Source of the DNA: Betaproteobacteria bacterium Ga0077540
GTDB taxonomy: Bacteria > Pseudomonadota > Gammaproteobacteria > Burkholderiales > Methylophilaceae
Reading direction: 5' to 3'
Assembly (NCBI GenBank): GCA_001464125.1
Contig: LNEP01000003.1
Span: 186,001-250,000, forward strand
DNA: 64,000 bases
The position numbers and the translations under genes are program-made. Below, piece by piece: positions 3,650-28,083 of the stretch (its first letter is position 1; each line of letters begins with the position of its first letter). The notes beneath the pieces were generated by a model, which did not search any database, was not told the DNA's origin, and saw nothing but the letters and a program-made list of their open reading frames with translations.

Positions 3650-3849
3650 GTTTGGTGGAGCAGGCGGGATTGCTCAGCTTTCGCATTACACCCGCGAAAA
3701 CTTCGGCCTAAAGGCCCGCTTCGCAGGCTCAGCGTCCAAGCAACCAGTGGTTGCTTAGTCGAACCCGAGGCAGCTTCTCATCCTCACCCACTACACAAAC
3801 AAAAACACCACCCGAAGGTGGTGTTTATTGTTTGGTGGAGCAGGCGGGA
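3648..3849. repeat. 22-bp direct repeat duplicating the 3' end of ssrA
   Basis: An identical 22-bp sequence (core TTTGGTGGAGCAGGCGGGA) occurs at 3648-3669 and 3828-3849, exactly 180 bp apart. The right copy is the 3' CCA end and acceptor/T-arm start of tmRNA. The left copy is a detached duplicate lying beyond the tmRNA terminator. The 3' end of ssrA is a classic integration site for tyrosine-recombinase elements, so this looks like an att-type scar, but the segment between the copies contains no integrase or other gene. Confidence 0.75.
3803..3826 (-). terminator. Intrinsic terminator of ssrA (tmRNA)
   Basis: Ten-base-pair stem (AACACCACC type) closed by a TTCG tetraloop as read on the minus strand, followed by a T-run. 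It begins 7 nt after the CCA end of tmRNA. Confidence 0.85.
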
Positions 3850-4197
3850 ATCGAACCCGCGTCCGCAAGCCCTCCACAGACAGTTCTACATACTTAGCTG
3901 TGTTGTTTAATTTAACCGTACACTCACCAACGAGCAAGCAAATGTAAAGCGAGTTACCTTAGATTTAATGATGTATTAAGTAACCCAATACACCACGATC
4001 TTCTCTTTATGACGCTGCTGCTAGTTACCTAGCCCGACCGAGAAGCCCTTCGGTGCAGCGTTCAGCCGGTATTAAGCGGCTAAAGCGTAAGTTTCGTCGT
4101 TTGCGACTATACTTGTTCAGATGGATTTACGAGGAAACCTGAACCCTCGGTATGCCCTGCACTGCTTTGCAACCCACGTCGAAACCTGGTCAGCCCC
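3833..4197 (-). ncRNA. ssrA: Transfer-messenger RNA (tmRNA, SsrA)
   Basis: About 365 nt on the minus strand. The 5' end begins GGGGCTGACCAGGTTTCGAC at 4197. The 3' end carries the tRNA-like T-arm GGTTCGATTCC and ends in CTCCACCA at 3833, with CCA encoded. The internal tag frame reads ANDETYALAA followed by TAA. tmRNA with SmpB (smpB at 46.6-47.1 kb here) rescues stalled ribosomes and marks the nascent peptide for proteolysis. It is a one-piece, non-permuted form. Boundaries are inferred from the conserved ends. Confidence 0.95.
4072..4104 (-). other. tmRNA proteolysis-tag reading frame
   Basis: Resume codon GCA at 4104-4102, coding A-N-D-E-T-Y-A-L-A-A and a TAA stop. The YALAA end is the degron recognised by ClpXP/ClpAP. 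Thr at position 5, where ANDENYALAA has Asn, is a small variation. Confidence 0.92.
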
Positions 4198-22953: not shown

Positions 22954-23436
22954 CTACTTACGCATATAAGTTAAATCGCTATAGGCAAGACCACTTGTAG
23001 ATAAGTGGTCTTTTTTTTCAATTAAAGTCCACGCGTGCCAGTCAATTTCTGGTAAAAATGCATCGCCATGCACTTCAATATCAACACGCGTGATATACAA
23101 CTTATTCACAAGCTTGAGCCCTTCTTGATAAAGCTGCGCACCACCAATTAAAAACAGCTCTTCATCTTTCTGGCAAAAGTGCATAGCTTCTTCTAGCGAA
23201 TGTACAACCACTGCACCTTCAACTTGATAACCACGATTTCTCGACACAATCACGGTGATCCTACCCGGTAACAAGCGCCCAAGCGATTCATAAGTTTTTC
23301 GTCCCATGATGATATGGTGACCCATGGTGAGTGCGCGAAACCGCTTTAGATCTTCAGGAACGTGCCAAGGCAAAGTGTTATTCACCCCAATCACACCGTT
23401 ATTGGCCACTGCCACAATCATCGATAAACAAGACAT
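22954..23436 (-). CDS. folA: Dihydrofolate reductase
   Basis: 160 aa from ATG 23436; a second in-frame ATG five codons on (23421) is possible. It reduces dihydrofolate to tetrahydrofolate with NADPH. Signature VANNGVIGVNNTLPWHVPEDL contains the active-site loop with a Pro-Trp and an acidic Asp at the substrate site; GHHIIMGRKTYESLG and RLLPGR bind NADPH. A TATAAT about 10 nt before the ATG suggests a very short leader. It converges on the decarboxylase gene, whose terminator is inside its coding region. Confidence 0.93.
   Translation of the reverse strand: MSCLSMIVAVANNGVIGVNNTLPWHVPEDLKRFRALTMGHHIIMGRKTYESLGRLLPGRITVIVSRNRGYQVEGAVVVHSLEEAMHFCQKDEELFLIGGAQLYQEGLKLVNKLYITRVDIEVHGDAFLPEIDWHAWTLIEKKDHLSTSGLAYSDLTYMRK
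22987..23018 (+). terminator. Intrinsic terminator of the decarboxylase gene, embedded in folA
   Basis: Perfect 10-bp stem AAGACCACTT / AAGTGGTCTT, loop GTAGAT, followed by eight T on the plus strand. It lies 33-78 nt inside the 3' coding end of folA, encoding part of its C terminus on the minus strand. Confidence 0.88.
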
Positions 23437-23482
23437 TTTTCCATTATACTGGATGTTTACACTGATACACCTGCAATACCTG

Positions 23483-24910
23483 ATGCGTATTCAATACCCC
23501 AACTCGTTTCTTAAGCTTTTACTGACTGGCTTTGCATTTGCAATTTTGCCGCTGATATTTGCTTTTATTAATGCAAATATTGCGTTCAGTAAACTATCTG
23601 AAAATAGCCAAAATACGATTGCAATGTCGGTTAAATCTACGCGTGCCAGTCAAGTGCTGCAAGAACAATTACATTTAATGGAGCGCAGCGCTCGTCAATA
23701 CTTTGTGTTGAGTGAATTTGAACTGTTAGAGCATTACCAAAACAGCCGGTTTGCTTTTATCCAGGCATTGCATGAGCTGATCAAACTGAACTCCGATCAA
23801 ATACAAATCAAAAAACTACAAAATATCGAGGAAATTGAATTTAACCTACATGTCTACATCATGCATACAAACATCAGCAGCCTAGAAGACATGCCTTTTC
23901 TAAGTGATTTCGGATTACTCGCGCAGAAGGTAGATGAAGTCATAGAGCTTAATAATCAACGTATCGACAACGCCTCCTTGCAATTGGCCAATGATGCAAG
24001 CAAAGCACAGCGGCGGTTTTTTCTGCAGAGTCTCATTTTGATTCCTTTTGCATTGCTGATTGCCGTTATTTTAGCGTTCATGCTGGCCAGACCAATTCAA
24101 CGCATGGATACAGTGATAGAGGATCTAGGTAAAGGTGTGTATGAGCATGAAATCAAAATCGATGGGCCAGGAAATTTGCGCCTATTGGGCAAGCGACTAA
24201 ATTGGTTGAGGCAAGAACTGTTGGACTTAAAAGAACAAAAGCAGCGTTTTTTACAGCACATTTCCCATGAACTCAAAACACCACTGACTGCAATCCGTGA
24301 AGCGACGGAACTGCTGACTGATGGCGTGGGCGGCGCACTCTCTGAACAACAGTCAGAGATTGTGCATATTCTTAAGCACAACAGCGTGCGCCTGCAGAAA
24401 ATGATTGAGAACTTGCTGACATTCACCAAGATGGAGTCTGATAAGCATGTTCTACAAATTGAGACGCTGGATGTCGAGACAATGGTCAATGCCGCATTGA
24501 GTGCACATACGCTGAGTATCCGGGCTAAAAATATTGATATAGAAACCTTTTACTTTGTTGATAAGATTCGTGCAGATGCAGAAACTGTAAGGGTTATACT
24601 GGATAATCTGTTTTCAAATGCGGTAAAATTCACACCTGAAAATGGTCAAATCATTTTCTCGTCAAGAATCGAGAAACCATGGCAAGTTTTAGAGGTTCAA
24701 GATGACGGCCCGGGCTTTAGCAAAGAAGATATGGACCGTATATTTGACCCTTTTTATCAAGGAAAAACATTGCACCAAGGACTTGTCAGCAGTACTGGCT
24801 TGGGTCTGACTATTGTCAATAATTTAATCGAAGCACACAAAGGTTTAATTGAATTTGCTCACAAAACACGTGGGGCACATGTCATCGTCAAATTACCTAT
24901 ATTGGAATAA
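23483..24910 (+). CDS. glrK: Sensor histidine kinase GlrK (QseE)
   Basis: 475 aa from ATG 23483; an ATG at 23453 is possible, while the longer frame overlaps folA. Two membrane helices (about residues 10-30 and 180-205) flank a periplasmic domain with the GlrK-like MERSARQYFVLSEFELLEHYQ. A HAMP-like linker, the H-box HISHELKTPLTAIREATELL (His about 262) and the ATPase boxes (DNLFSNAVKF, DDGPGFS, GLGLTIV) follow. The sequence, and the order kinase-lipoprotein-NtrC regulator, match E. coli glrK-qseG-glrR, which senses envelope or amino-sugar related signals and controls small RNA genes. Confidence 0.9.
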   Translation: MRIQYPNSFLKLLLTGFAFAILPLIFAFINANIAFSKLSENSQNTIAMSVKSTRASQVLQEQLHLMERSARQYFVLSEFELLEHYQNSRFAFIQALHELIKLNSDQIQIKKLQNIEEIEFNLHVYIMHTNISSLEDMPFLSDFGLLAQKVDEVIELNNQRIDNASLQLANDASKAQRRFFLQSLILIPFALLIAVILAFMLARPIQRMDTVIEDLGKGVYEHEIKIDGPGNLRLLGKRLNWLRQELLDLKEQKQRFLQHISHELKTPLTAIREATELLTDGVGGALSEQQSEIVHILKHNSVRLQKMIENLLTFTKMESDKHVLQIETLDVETMVNAALSAHTLSIRAKNIDIETFYFVDKIRADAETVRVILDNLFSNAVKFTPENGQIIFSSRIEKPWQVLEVQDDGPGFSKEDMDRIFDPFYQGKTLHQGLVSSTGLGLTIVNNLIEAHKGLIEFAHKTRGAHVIVKLPILE

Positions 24911-24917
24911 TAGATCA

Positions 24918-25502
24918 GTGAAACATTTATTTTCTTATTTTTTCTTAACTTTTATGGCCGTGGGCTGCGCCACACAGCCTACAGTGTTGCCTAGCACAGA
25001 TGTCATGCAAAGCAATGAGAGCGCAGTCAACACAATCGCCAATAACAGCGGCATTACCTTGTTGCCAACTCCTGTAGAGGCTGTCACGTTGCCTATTGTT
25101 GCTTGTGACAATTACAGCAAACTAGACACCAATGCTCAAAAAAAGCAATTGATTGAGACTCAGCAAGCACTTGCAAAAAATAAGCAAGATTTGTTGCACC
25201 GCATTAGACTCGCTTGTGTTTATGCATTACCTAGCAGCTATGCCAAAGATGCAACAAAAGCGCATGTGCTATTACAACAACTTAAAGATGATGAGATGTT
25301 AAATAATACTGACAAGGCTTTTATTAGCCATATCTACATGTTTAATAACGAAAATATCAAGCAACAGCAAAAGAGTCGAGATGATGCCAGGTCATTAGAG
25401 TCGCTTACGCAAAAGTATGAAATGCTGGAAAAGAAATATGATGCAAGTGAGCAAAAGCTCATACAACTAAAAAACATAGAAAAAAAACTAAATGTTCGTT
25501 AA
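24918..25502 (+). CDS. qseG: QseG-like lipoprotein of the GlrK/GlrR system
   Basis: 194 aa from GTG 24918, 7 nt after glrK; this start gives an N terminus KHLFSYFFLTFMAVGC that looks like a lipoprotein signal with Cys about residue 17, though Ala at -3 of the lipobox is atypical. After a Ser/Thr/Asn-rich stretch comes a region with CDNYSKLD and helical repeats, then a C-terminal coiled coil (SLTQKYEMLEKKYDASEQKL). E. coli QseG is an outer-membrane lipoprotein that contacts the kinase QseE. The assignment rests mainly on position between glrK and glrR, plus size and coiled coil. Confidence 0.72.
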   Translation: MKHLFSYFFLTFMAVGCATQPTVLPSTDVMQSNESAVNTIANNSGITLLPTPVEAVTLPIVACDNYSKLDTNAQKKQLIETQQALAKNKQDLLHRIRLACVYALPSSYAKDATKAHVLLQQLKDDEMLNNTDKAFISHIYMFNNENIKQQQKSRDDARSLESLTQKYEMLEKKYDASEQKLIQLKNIEKKLNVR

Positions 25503-25528
25503 CTTGCACCTAGCAGTCAGCATTGCGC

Positions 25529-26881
25529 ATGAAATCAGCTAGCATTCTCATTGTTGATGACGATCATGACATCTTACGATTGATCGATTTACGATTGCAG
25601 TCAGCAGGTTACCACACCACGCTTGCTCATAATGGCGCAGCAGCACTAGCTAGTGCCGCAATTCAACGGCCTGATTTAGTTATTACCGACCTGCAGATGC
25701 CTGAATTGGATGGCATGGAGTTGATGCTGCAATTACATCGCCACCACCCTACTTTGCCTGTGATTATTCTCACCGCGCATGGCACTATTCCAGATGCAGT
25801 GGCGGCTACCCATCAAGGGGCTTTTAGCTTTTTATCAAAACCGTTTGAGAGCCAAGTATTACTACAGCAAGTAGCCAATGCTTTACAAATAAGCGGTATA
25901 AGCTCGCAAGCACCTGAAGCACAAGACATTTGGCGCAAGATGATTCTAACCAAAAGTCCACGTATGGAGAATCTACTCAGTCAAGCCAAACAGATTGCCA
26001 GCAGTGATGTTAGCGTTTTGATACAAGGCGAAAGCGGAACGGGTAAAGAGTTGCTTGCACACGCTTTACACCAAGCCAGTACGCGCCAGCATCAACCATT
26101 TGTTGCCATTAATTGTGGCGCCATTCCAGAAAATTTATTAGAGTCCGAGTTGTTCGGCCATACCAAAGGCGCGTTCACCGGAGCAGTGAATGCGCACGTG
26201 GGCCTATTTCAAGCAGCTGATGGCGGTACATTATTTTTAGATGAGATTGGCGATATGCCACTGTCACTACAAGTCAAAGTATTGCGTGCATTGCAAGAGC
26301 GGATGATACGGCCCGTGGGTAGTACTCAGACGATTCCTATTAATGTCAGGCTGATTTCGGCAACCCATCGCGACCTGATAGTAGAAATGAAAGCGCAACA
26401 GTTCCGAGAAGACTTGTTTTACCGTATCAACGTCGTCAATTTGGTGCTGCCATCGTTGGCTGAACGACGCGAAGACATTCCTTTACTCACGCATCACTTT
26501 CTCAAGGTATTCAGTGAGCGGCATCAAAAAACACTACAAGGCTATGCACCGGATGCACTCAGCTATTTAAGCCAAGCGGCGTGGCCTGGTAATATTCGCC
26601 AACTGCAAAATGTGATTGAACACACGGTAGTGCTAGCCACTACGCCTGTAATTCCTGAGAGCTTGGTGAAAAAAGCACTGCAAGCTGATCATGATGCTGT
26701 GTTGCCGTTTGAGGTAGCTCGCCAACAGTTTGAACATCAATATTTGGTCAATCTATTGAAAAGTACTCATGGTAATGTCACCCAAGCGGCTAAACTCGCT
26801 CAACGCAATCGCACTGAATTTTATCGCTTATTAGAACGTCATGCGATTGATCCACAATTATTCAAACATCCATTACAGTAA
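25529..26881 (+). CDS. glrR: Sigma-54-dependent response regulator GlrR (QseF)
   Basis: 450 aa from ATG 25529 (the frame's upstream TTG is ignored). Receiver domain with acidic pocket DDDHD and phosphoacceptor Asp54 in VITDLQMPELDG; AAA+ domain with Walker A GESGTGKELLAHAL, the sigma-54 contact loop GAFTGA at about residue 214, and the arginine-finger region; C-terminal Fis-type helix-turn-helix (HGNVTQAAKLAQRNRTEFYRLL). It activates sigma-54 promoters when phosphorylated by GlrK. Immediately after its stop codon lie three sites of the GlrR type, an IHF site and a sigma-54 promoter, so the gene's own 3' flank is a likely target. Confidence 0.92.
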   Translation: MKSASILIVDDDHDILRLIDLRLQSAGYHTTLAHNGAAALASAAIQRPDLVITDLQMPELDGMELMLQLHRHHPTLPVIILTAHGTIPDAVAATHQGAFSFLSKPFESQVLLQQVANALQISGISSQAPEAQDIWRKMILTKSPRMENLLSQAKQIASSDVSVLIQGESGTGKELLAHALHQASTRQHQPFVAINCGAIPENLLESELFGHTKGAFTGAVNAHVGLFQAADGGTLFLDEIGDMPLSLQVKVLRALQERMIRPVGSTQTIPINVRLISATHRDLIVEMKAQQFREDLFYRINVVNLVLPSLAERREDIPLLTHHFLKVFSERHQKTLQGYAPDALSYLSQAAWPGNIRQLQNVIEHTVVLATTPVIPESLVKKALQADHDAVLPFEVARQQFEHQYLVNLLKSTHGNVTQAAKLAQRNRTEFYRLLERHAIDPQLFKHPLQ

Positions 26882-26882
26882 C

Positions 26883-26900
26883 TGTCGCCCATCTGTGTCA
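26883..26900. promoter_or_regulatory. Putative GlrR site 1 (imperfect)
   Basis: TGTC-N10-GTCA directly after the glrR stop codon. It matches the TGTC-N10-GACA motif known for GlrR at seven of eight fixed positions. Its centre is 32 bp (three helical turns) upstream of site 2. Confidence 0.55.
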
Positions 26901-26913
26901 CAACATGCTAAAG

Positions 26914-26933
26914 TTGTCGCTAATTAGCGACAA
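26914..26933. promoter_or_regulatory. Putative GlrR site 2 (perfect 20-bp palindrome)
   Basis: TTGTCGCTAATTAGCGACAA is a perfect palindrome and contains TGTC-N10-GACA exactly. Its centre is about 162 bp upstream of the predicted transcription start, a normal enhancer distance for sigma-54 activators. Confidence 0.8.
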
Positions 26934-26979
26934 TTAATTTCATTTAAATTCAACAACTTAGAATAAACCTTACAAAACC

Positions 26980-26997
26980 TGTCACAAATGAGCGACA
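26980..26997. promoter_or_regulatory. Putative GlrR site 3
   Basis: TGTC-ACAAATGAGC-GACA, a second exact match to TGTC-N10-GACA. Its centre is 65 bp (about six turns) from site 2 and about 98 bp before the predicted start. Confidence 0.75.
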
Positions 26998-27029
26998 AAC
27001 TTGTCCGAGTGCCTGATATACAAAATTTT

Positions 27030-27042
27030 TAACTCATTGATT
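27030..27042 (-). promoter_or_regulatory. Perfect IHF consensus site
   Basis: On the minus strand AATCAATGAGTTA matches WATCAA-N4-TTR at every fixed position. It lies between the GlrR sites and the sigma-54 promoter, where IHF bending would bring the activator to the polymerase. Confidence 0.75.
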
Positions 27043-27058
27043 TATATAGATAAAAAAG

Positions 27059-27075
27059 TTGGCACACTATTCGCT
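27059..27075 (+). promoter_or_regulatory. Sigma-54 (-24/-12) promoter of the small RNA
   Basis: TTGGCAC-ACTAT-TCGCT. GG is at 27061-27062 and GC at 27073-27074, the invariant 12-bp offset; the -24 element TTGGCAC is ideal, and the -12 element is TCGC instead of TTGC. Predicted start is about 27086-27088. Confidence 0.78.
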
Positions 27076-27086
27076 AATAGTAAATT

Positions 27087-27158
27087 AGTGACTTCCTCCC
27101 TTGTAGTCACCTACTTCTGAAGTTGCCCAATAAAAAACAAACTGGGCAACTTTTTTTT
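27087..27158 (+). ncRNA. Candidate GlrR-controlled small RNA (new family)
   Basis: About 72 nt from the predicted sigma-54 start to the end of a T-run. Hairpin 1: GTGACT (27088-27093) pairs with AGTCAC (27105-27110), and its 11-nt loop TCCTCCCTTGT carries an anti-Shine-Dalgarno sequence. A short linker (CTACTTCTG) follows. Hairpin 2 is an intrinsic terminator with an A-rich 13-nt loop and eight T, features that suit Hfq binding. No open reading frame with a ribosome site is present, and the next gene (thyA) is on the other strand, so the transcript is non-coding. In Enterobacteriaceae GlrR activates glmY/glmZ in the same way; no sequence similarity to those RNAs is evident. Function is inferred. 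Confidence 0.72.
27120..27158 (+). terminator. Intrinsic terminator of the small RNA
   Basis: AAGTTGCCCA (27120-27129) pairs with TGGGCAACTT (27143-27152) over ten base pairs, loop ATAAAAAACAAAC, T-run 27151-27158. Confidence 0.92.
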
Positions 27159-27183
27159 GCCCAAAATTTGTGATGTGCTTAGG

Positions 27184-27214
27184 TTTTAATAGTTAACAGG
27201 ATTAACTATTAAAA
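27184..27214. repeat. Long AT-rich inverted repeat downstream of thyA
   Basis: Perfect 13-bp arms TTTTAATAGTTAA and TTAACTATTAAAA around CAGGA. It lies 18 nt beyond the thyA stop. No T-run follows on the minus strand, so it may be a 3'-end stabilising hairpin or a weak terminator. Confidence 0.55.
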
Positions 27215-27231
27215 AATTTAGACAGCCAAAG

Positions 27232-28083
27232 CTAGACAGAAAATGGGTATTTGATGGGTGGATGGCACTCATAGCCCTCTACTGTGAAATCGTTCACAGT
27301 GACCCAAGTTTCCACATCCTTGAGTGTTTTAATGTCTGGATTAATAATGAGTTTAGGCGAGGGGTACGGTGTTCGCTTCAGCTGAACATCACGCATTAAC
27401 TCAAGTTGATCTTCGTAAATATGTGCGTTAACGAGCTTATGAAATGCTTTTCCTGCTTTTTTACCCGTAATCTGCGCAACCAACGCCAGCAAGAAATAGA
27501 CTTGCACCATATTGAAGTTAAGGCCAAGCGGTACATCACAACTTCTTTGTGTGCTGTTCAGATATAGCGTATCACCCAACAGAGAAAAGTGATGGCTGTA
27601 CATACAAGGCCTTAAGCAGCCCATATGGAAAACGCCAGGGTGGTAAAAAGTGAGGATTTCGCCTCGATTATCAATGCCTTGCGTCAGGTCATCGATAATG
27701 TTTTTCAGTAAATCAATACTGCCGCCATCTGGCTTGGGAAAATTTCTAGCTACTTTGCCGTAGATAAAACCACAGTCGTCTTGCCCCTTGCGATAGGGAT
27801 TGGCCAGCCAGTCTTGATTTTCGTTGGCATTAGCATCCCAAGTGGTAGTGCCCGCTGCTCTAAAATCTGCTGCATTGTCATAGCCACGCAGGTAACCAAG
27901 CATTTCTGCAATGGCTGATTTATAAAAGCTTTTACGGGTAGTAACTAATGGAAAAACACCATTTTCAAGATCATAGGTAAGGTCGGCATTGATGATGGTC
28001 AGACATCTTTTACCGGTCCGCTTATTCTCAACCCAGACGCCCTCGTCAATGATTCTTTGGCATAACTCAAGGTATTGCTTCAT
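27232..28083 (-). CDS. thyA: Thymidylate synthase, 283-aa type
   Basis: 283 aa; methylates dUMP to dTMP using methylene-THF. Catalytic Cys160 lies in [16 protein letters not shown], and [15 protein letters not shown] and [12 protein letters not shown] form the substrate and dimer sites. E. coli ThyA is 264 aa with APCHAFFQF at the active site. The form here, including the [10 protein letters not shown] motif and length, resembles the one I recall from Vibrio and related gammaproteobacteria. It lies near but not beside folA: the glr operon and the small RNA separate them. Confidence 0.94.

Follow-up and report, generated by a model that had tools for sequence, protein, structure and literature searches.

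The region between glrR and the convergent gene downstream of it in the window (the whole stretch of DNA that was analysed, 64 kb in length) very probably gives rise to a small RNA of 73 nt which, judged from its sequence, corresponds to the 3' hairpin and terminator of an operon that in relatives also encodes a protein. The explanation we favour, and consider likely, is that this is a GlrR/sigma-54-dependent, probably Hfq-assisted sRNA of the 3'UTR type, freed from its mRNA, and that its CCUCCC loop acts by pairing to ribosome-binding sites; this estimate draws mainly on the identities within a clade of genomes that carry the RNA alone, the glrR tree, the hairpin scan, the covariation and the fourfold sites. 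On the same comparisons the predicted RNA is a selected and conserved element, the protein having been dropped and the RNA kept in one clade. The features are listed below, in which "RNA-only" refers to four genomes, that of the window and G067, G078 and G070, where there is no ORF and the hairpin begins 12 nt past the promoter 16-mer.

23324..24910, + strand: glrK candidate; Pfam HisKA and HATPase_c over the cut-off, HAMP under; start codon not fixed
24849..25502, + strand: qseG candidate, named by position only; lipobox-like sequence near the N terminus, judged by eye
25523..26881, + strand: glrR; receiver, AAA+ sigma-54 activator and Fis-type HTH (HTH_8 just under the cut-off)
26883..26900, + strand: possible third GlrR site, imperfect TGTC-N10-GTCA; also in G067 (7/8 positions), not in G078 or G070
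26915..26932, + strand: GlrR-type dyad 1, TGTCGCTAATTAGCGACA; 94-100% identical in the four RNA-only genomes
26980..26997, + strand: GlrR-type dyad 2, TGTCACAAATGAGCGACA; 83-94% identical in the four RNA-only genomes
27030..27042, + strand: IHF-type core YAANNNNTTGATW; predicted site only
27060..27075, + strand: sigma-54 promoter, -24/-12, TGGCACACTATTCGCT; 16/16 identical in the four RNA-only genomes
27086..27158, + strand: predicted small RNA, from +1 to the end of the U-tract; 73 nt, sequence-based
27088..27110, + strand: hairpin 1, GUGACU-UCCUCCCUUGU-AGUCAC; CU-rich loop, covaries in relatives
27094..27104, + strand: hairpin 1 loop, UCCUCCCUUGU; CU-rich, proposed pairing site
27120..27158, + strand: intrinsic terminator, second hairpin AAGUUGCCCA/UGGGCAACUU followed by eight U
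27232..28083, - strand: convergent gene, which from its sequence we take to be thyA; outside the operon of the RNA

Control region

A -24/-12 promoter with exact GG-N10-GC spacing had been proposed in the first-pass annotation and is borne out here, with GG at 27061-62, GC at 27073-74 and a predicted +1 at 27086. The sigma-54 pattern has a single match in the window against 0.67 expected, and 46 of 100 shuffles contain at least one, so that taken alone it says little and it is the context which raises it above chance. A gene for RpoN was found in all six genomes examined.

Upstream of the promoter are two dyads, both exact TGTC-N10-GACA and spaced 65 bp; this is the binding motif given for QseF/GlrR in the available part of one report (PMC8745638), whilst the excerpt of another describes QseF, assisted by IHF, as binding upstream sites and driving glmY via a sigma-54 promoter (PMC6075780). 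Exact dyads occur three times in the window (these two and one elsewhere) and three or more were found in 8 of 100 shuffles, thus the count is modest and it is the pairing and the conservation which carry weight. Across the 2.33-Mb genome the exact dyad is present in 12 places, compared with 28 for the reversed control, and a close pair is found only at this locus. The combination of a dyad, 55-72 nt and the sigma-54 pattern was identified in 29 of 187 family genomes, each one of them a GlrR genome, with one for the reversed control. There are 33 such places in total, a few of which are not beside glrR (G139:C12:166012, G128:C7:9708, G120:C28:51440, G032:C131:11737 and G183:C56:533); these are possible second GlrR targets.

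Between the dyads and the promoter lies the IHF-type core. An exact core 30-32 nt ahead of the TGG is found at 26 of 54 family promoters, including those of two of the four RNA-only genomes, and is absent in G078 and G070, the other two; on both strands of the 64 kb it occurs 11 times. Together, the two dyads and the IHF-type site, which were absent from the first-pass annotation, are the strongest evidence for the predicted control by GlrR.

GlrR and neighbouring genes

Of the NCBIfam models, that for GlrR matched the glrR product best. It scored 617.5 bits, short of the curated cut-off of 763, and the runner-up scored 416.4; the product is considered a GlrR relative because this model is the best by 201 bits and because the sites are of the TGTC-N10-GACA type. 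For the qseG candidate there were no family matches in Pfam or NCBIfam. With a threshold of E<=1e-120, 56 of the 187 family genomes carry GlrR, and within the window's genus it is patchy, being present in 6 of 22 genomes at this threshold. A divergent GlrR-like group (L052, L059 and L060) forms a clade of its own (100/100) with other ORFs downstream, and the C-rich hairpin described below was not found after the GlrR-like gene at these three loci.

Structure of the predicted RNA

The initial description of an RNA of about 72 nt with two hairpins, the second a terminator, and with no coding potential agrees with the analysis: the RNA measures 73 nt from the predicted +1, the second hairpin pairs AAGUUGCCCA with UGGGCAACUU and is followed by eight U at the end, and the frame opened by GTG 2 nt inside the RNA comprises only 10 codons. 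The fold of 27086-27158 reaches -21.8 kcal/mol, compared with -9.6 +/- 2.5 in 200 shuffles (z -4.86), none of which was as low.

At the 3' end of the RNA, the terminator scan detected a terminator on the - strand; loops of 3-8 nt were allowed, so that the + strand terminator, with a loop of 13 nt, was invisible to it. On the reverse strand an overlapping terminator serves thyA, and its U tract is formed by the A-rich loop of the terminator on the + strand. Positions 27116-27175 make up an interlocked bidirectional terminator, containing three copies of TTGCCC/GGGCAA, the letters of which are nearly unchanged across the four RNA-only genomes.

When the window was searched against Rfam at the gathering score, the small RNA matched no family, and a search of 26882-27231 at E<=10 returned only sub-threshold matches (E 0.68-9.6). 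The only match in the window at the gathering score was a tmRNA (3833-4197, - strand).

The RNA in related genomes

Within 420 nt downstream of glrR, a dyad (7 of 8 letters) is present in 47 of the 56 GlrR genomes and a dyad pair in 39, whilst the sigma-54 pattern follows glrR in 51; these counts take one locus per genome, the second GlrR copies L032, L052 and L059 being left out. In most GlrR relatives the promoter is then followed by a small ORF, encoding an EF-hand, EF-hand/BON or other protein. Five promoter-downstream proteins were compared with Pfam and EF hands were found in four, one of which also contains BON, with the match in G071 lying below Pfam's cut-offs; Pfam gave no match for the promoter-downstream protein from genus g14. 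For the remaining ORFs, EF-hand motifs and signal-peptide-like starts were judged by eye. An orthologue of the G071 EF-hand protein was not found in the four RNA-only genomes (G067 is one contig and 99% complete, G000 and G070 approximately 88%), where the best matches covered only the EF motif, with E of 7e-4 to 9e-7; these resemble weak paralogues in G071 and G077, compared with 1.4e-13 for the G077 gene at the locus.

The EF-hand ORF of G071 is followed by GTGGCTTCCTCCCTTGTAGTCAC and a GTTGCCC/GGGCAAC terminator, nearly identical to the RNA of the window. In other genera the GlrR operon also finishes with a hairpin, the loop of which reads, for example, CCUCCCCUA, CCUCCCCGA or CUCCCCUUAG; this hairpin is placed before the terminator or forms it, and in some genera 1.6-1.9 kb downstream of glrR. 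A strict scan for hairpins with a C-rich loop (stem of at least 7, T run within 85 nt) recovered 41 of the 56 GlrR genomes, with 42 matches in 105 kb downstream, whereas the controls gave 2 matches (161 kb of upstream sequence) and 1 match (105 kb of the reverse strand); as the scan was designed after examples had been seen the positives are post hoc, the controls having been run under the identical rule. The 15 genomes missed include the four RNA-only genomes, which have a 6-bp stem, and three which can be explained, G137 by its loop CCCACACCC and G143 and G147 by an operon located elsewhere; for eight (G178, G179, G177, G034, G156, G169, G035 and G120) there is no explanation. When the T-run rule was dropped, this looser scan for the C-rich hairpin gave 7 control matches over 169 kb of upstream sequence and a single one over 103 kb of the reverse strand.

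A covariance-model search of other Methylophilaceae, the check put forward in the first-pass annotation, was carried out with a model (R1) built from 15 sequences; at E<=0.05 there were matches in 22 of the 187 genomes. At E<=0.001, 19 of the 56 genomes with GlrR were matched, as was 1 of the 131 others; with the 15 model-building genomes removed this becomes 4 of 41 against 1 of 131 (Fisher p 0.012). The non-GlrR match, in G040, is there too downstream of an EF-hand-like frame. Each of G078, G067 and G070 has a further R1 match (E 0.001-0.014), located after another gene and without a C-rich loop, and these were rejected as chance terminators. The 16 genomes of the window's genus without GlrR gave no R1 match at E<=0.05. 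In G158 (L276) the whole dyad-promoter-EF-hand-hairpin unit is tandemly duplicated and both RNA copies match the model.

By its position, after the ORF and before the T run, the putative RNA of the relatives is a 3'UTR element, and the predicted RNA of the window is their 3' hairpin and terminator minus the ORF. The earlier suggestion that this lineage has its own GlrR-dependent RNA stands as regards the conservation of the control region and the RNA, but needs amending in that the same RNA ends a GlrR/sigma-54 operon in the relatives.

Selection, covariation and loss of the reading frame

Among the four RNA-only genomes, hairpin 1 is identical at 22-23 of 23 positions, the terminator at 38-39 of 39 and the dyads at 83-100%, compared with 44-89% for the linker, 57-65% for the 60 nt past the terminator and 30-40% for the fourfold sites of codon-aligned glrR. 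On these identities, hairpin 1, the terminator and the control sites are under strong purifying selection, as reconstructed since the clade diverged. As the A-rich loop doubles as the U tract of the thyA terminator, the opposite strand may explain part of the terminator conservation; the conservation of hairpin 1 is not attributable to this overlap. The promoter and the RNA are conserved downstream of glrR in relatives; the absence of conservation, which the first-pass annotation had named as grounds for rejection, was not observed.

In an alignment of 24 matches (23 distinct sequences), double changes were found in 13 of 18 base pairs, in both helices. Double-change cells numbered 56, compared with 13.3 in shuffles, and 94.1% of cells were paired, with slid versions nowhere near these values; these figures are biased in favour of covariation, because the alignment is structure-fitted and the 15 sequences of the model are among those aligned.

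The four RNA-only genomes form one clade in the glrR tree (100/100), the sister of which is the EF-hand-bearing G071 (100/99), represented by a GlrR fragment of residues 82-449. Methylophilaceae bacterium 11 (JCKJ01000001.1), the closest relative that bears a name, is in the RNA-only state. A single ORF loss thus explains all four genomes, and the retention of the RNA and its control region after this loss suggests that the RNA itself has a job.

Function and alternative explanations

We propose that envelope signals would lead to the phosphorylation of GlrR, which, with IHF assisting, would activate the sigma-54 promoter. The RNA would have its source in the 3'UTR of a GlrR-controlled mRNA encoding a small EF-hand protein; with the ORF and leader deleted in the clade, the promoter would now fire directly into the 3' hairpin and terminator, giving a primary transcript of approximately 73 nt that starts with a hairpin and finishes in a U-rich stretch. 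This RNA would be bound by Hfq, and the exposed CCUCCC loop would pair with G-rich ribosome-binding sites and repress the target mRNAs, whilst in the relatives the RNA would be released from the end of the mRNA, as CpxQ is from cpxP. The 5' hairpin, exposed CCUCCC and eight U fit an Hfq-dependent sRNA which covers ribosome-binding sites, and a gene for Hfq was found in all six genomes examined, in five of them over the cut-off.

In a target search for the exact 8-nt complement of the loop, AAGGGAGG, before ATG, the six genomes gave 15 matches against 8 for the reversed sequence, with no convincing shared gene; in the window's own genome there were 2 against 3 in the reversed control, and 12 of the 15 matches belong to open frames of 37 codons or fewer. 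The loop sequence varies between genera, thus conserved targets should not be assumed. This lack of a clear mRNA target fits the proposal that a protein is bound (RapZ, ProQ, titration of Hfq, or other) and that the RNA does not work by pairing, much as GlmY acts on RapZ, and a gene with a RapZ-type domain is present in all six genomes; according to the available excerpt of PMC7073468, GlmY serves the RapZ pathway of E. coli as a decoy. Nevertheless, the element most constant across genera is the C-rich loop, carried on varying stems, as pairing with ribosome-binding sites needs, and we regard action through a protein as rather unlikely.

The hairpin of the relatives could instead work only in cis, on message stability or termination, with the freed copy merely stopping transcription, and in several genera the C-rich loop does lie within the terminator hairpin itself. 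However, the clade of the window has no message to stabilise and the loop is still invariant; termination needs no C-rich loop, and the strict-scan controls held only 2 such hairpins in 161 kb and 1 in 105 kb. A purely local role is for these reasons improbable.

Smaller still is the chance that the promoter and terminator are functionless left-overs of the deleted ORF. Such a relic would account for the missing ORF, which has no orthologue elsewhere in the four genomes, and for the unsuccessful target search, but not for hairpin 1, the dyads, the promoter and the terminator being 83-100% identical when the glrR fourfold sites are 30-40% identical and the flank and linker have drifted; nor would hairpin 1 be expected to be necessary for termination. 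That the RNA is a GlmZ-like activator of glmS is barely credible, for although its type of promoter control and neighbourhood are those of glmY and genes for GlmS and RapZ are found in 6 of 6 genomes, there is no Rfam GlmY/GlmZ match even at E<=10 and the duplexes of the loop with glmS in the six genomes are weak (-7.2 to -10.6 kcal/mol, no background having been computed for comparison).

With the sRNA freed from a 3'UTR as the preferred explanation, a wider proposal is that the constant output of GlrR-type systems outside the enterobacteria is the RNA, the protein in front of it being exchanged and in one clade shed; we would give this an even chance. It would hold for the Methylophilaceae, and might extend further into the order, with the GlrR/IHF/sigma-54 promoter retaining a C-rich-loop RNA at the transcript end behind EF-hand, EF-hand/BON or other small proteins. 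RNA data are the usual basis for arguing that a 3'UTR hairpin is itself a regulator. In the present case a natural deletion, in which the ORF is gone and the RNA and control region are kept, would show cleanly how a 3'UTR turns into an sRNA gene, and the sister states with and without the ORF offer a pair for experiments.

Beyond the family

In the wider order, 40 loci hand-picked from 151 GlrR genomes included 31 with a dyad and 21 with a dyad pair; a C-rich hairpin with a T run was found at 8 of these loci, and at 3 on the reverse strand, counts which are suggestive only. At several loci of other families of the order (L186, L190, L196, L198, L179 and L180) there are terminator-like hairpins with loops such as UUCCUCCCUU. 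From such GlrR-operon hairpins in other families, the RNA may be older than the Methylophilaceae. No clear RNA of the same layout was seen at L076-L085, ten of 80 loci (eight gammaproteobacterial, one from a Burkholderiales MAG and one from Parazoarcus); at two of them, L084 and L085, a dyad is accompanied by a sigma-54 pattern on the opposite strand, close to an ORF start.

Comparison with known systems

Among the open-licence papers listed, none dealt with this RNA, with the targets of GlrR in Methylophilaceae or with GlrR EF-hand/BON operons; GlrR is listed in Acidithiobacillia in an article whose available part mentions no such RNA (PMC12194929).

The closest comparison as regards control is GlmY, with which the predicted RNA shares TGTC-N10-GACA sites, an IHF-type site, a sigma-54 promoter, an RNA output and linkage to glrK-qseG-glrR (PMC6075780, PMC8745638, both as excerpted); the layout of two dyads, an IHF-type site and a sigma-54 promoter is that reported for E. 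coli glmY in the parts available. In contrast, the RNA of the window is located after glrR, with GlmY before glrK, and is 73 nt with a C-rich loop, derived from a protein operon and without support for a link to glmS. Membership of GlmY/GlmZ was rejected, with no Rfam match at the gathering score or at E<=10. The first-pass annotation, which had proposed a GlrR-dependent RNA of unrelated sequence by analogy with GlmY/GlmZ and glmS, is thus upheld by the conserved dyads, IHF-type site and sigma-54 promoter and the lack of an Rfam match, as far as predicted control goes; the analogy holds for the control region, but no support was found for a role in glmS regulation. The link between GlrR and a regulatory RNA known from GlmY would appear to have an unrelated betaproteobacterial counterpart, making the ancestral function of the system testable.

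In form, the RNA resembles the double-hairpin RNAs of Burkholderia (RF02278), which are described in the excerpted source as very short, betaproteobacterial and composed of two hairpins, with unpaired CU-rich sequence that is predicted to mask ribosome-binding sites (PMC5688073). It is not considered a member, as there was no match in 26882-27231 at E<=10 and none at the C-rich element of 17 loci at E<=1; the search gave one sub-threshold match, on the other strand of L050 and away from the C-rich element. Bordetella S17, a processed 67-nt RNA with a C/U-rich stretch, is similar by description, which is the only level at which the two were compared, and for most of its candidate targets the predicted contact is with the ribosome-binding site; S17 differs in its sigma-A promoter and its locus, and it represses a sigma-54 activator (PMC11722255, in part).

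As regards origin, the likeness is to CpxQ, where a stress regulator drives the cpxP mRNA and a conserved 3'UTR RNA acts as an sRNA (PMC9438474, as excerpted). Here too a regulator would drive the mRNA of a small protein bearing a conserved 3' hairpin and terminator, with release from the mRNA being predicted in the relatives; the difference is that one clade now has no ORF, leaving the putative RNA alone under the same promoter.
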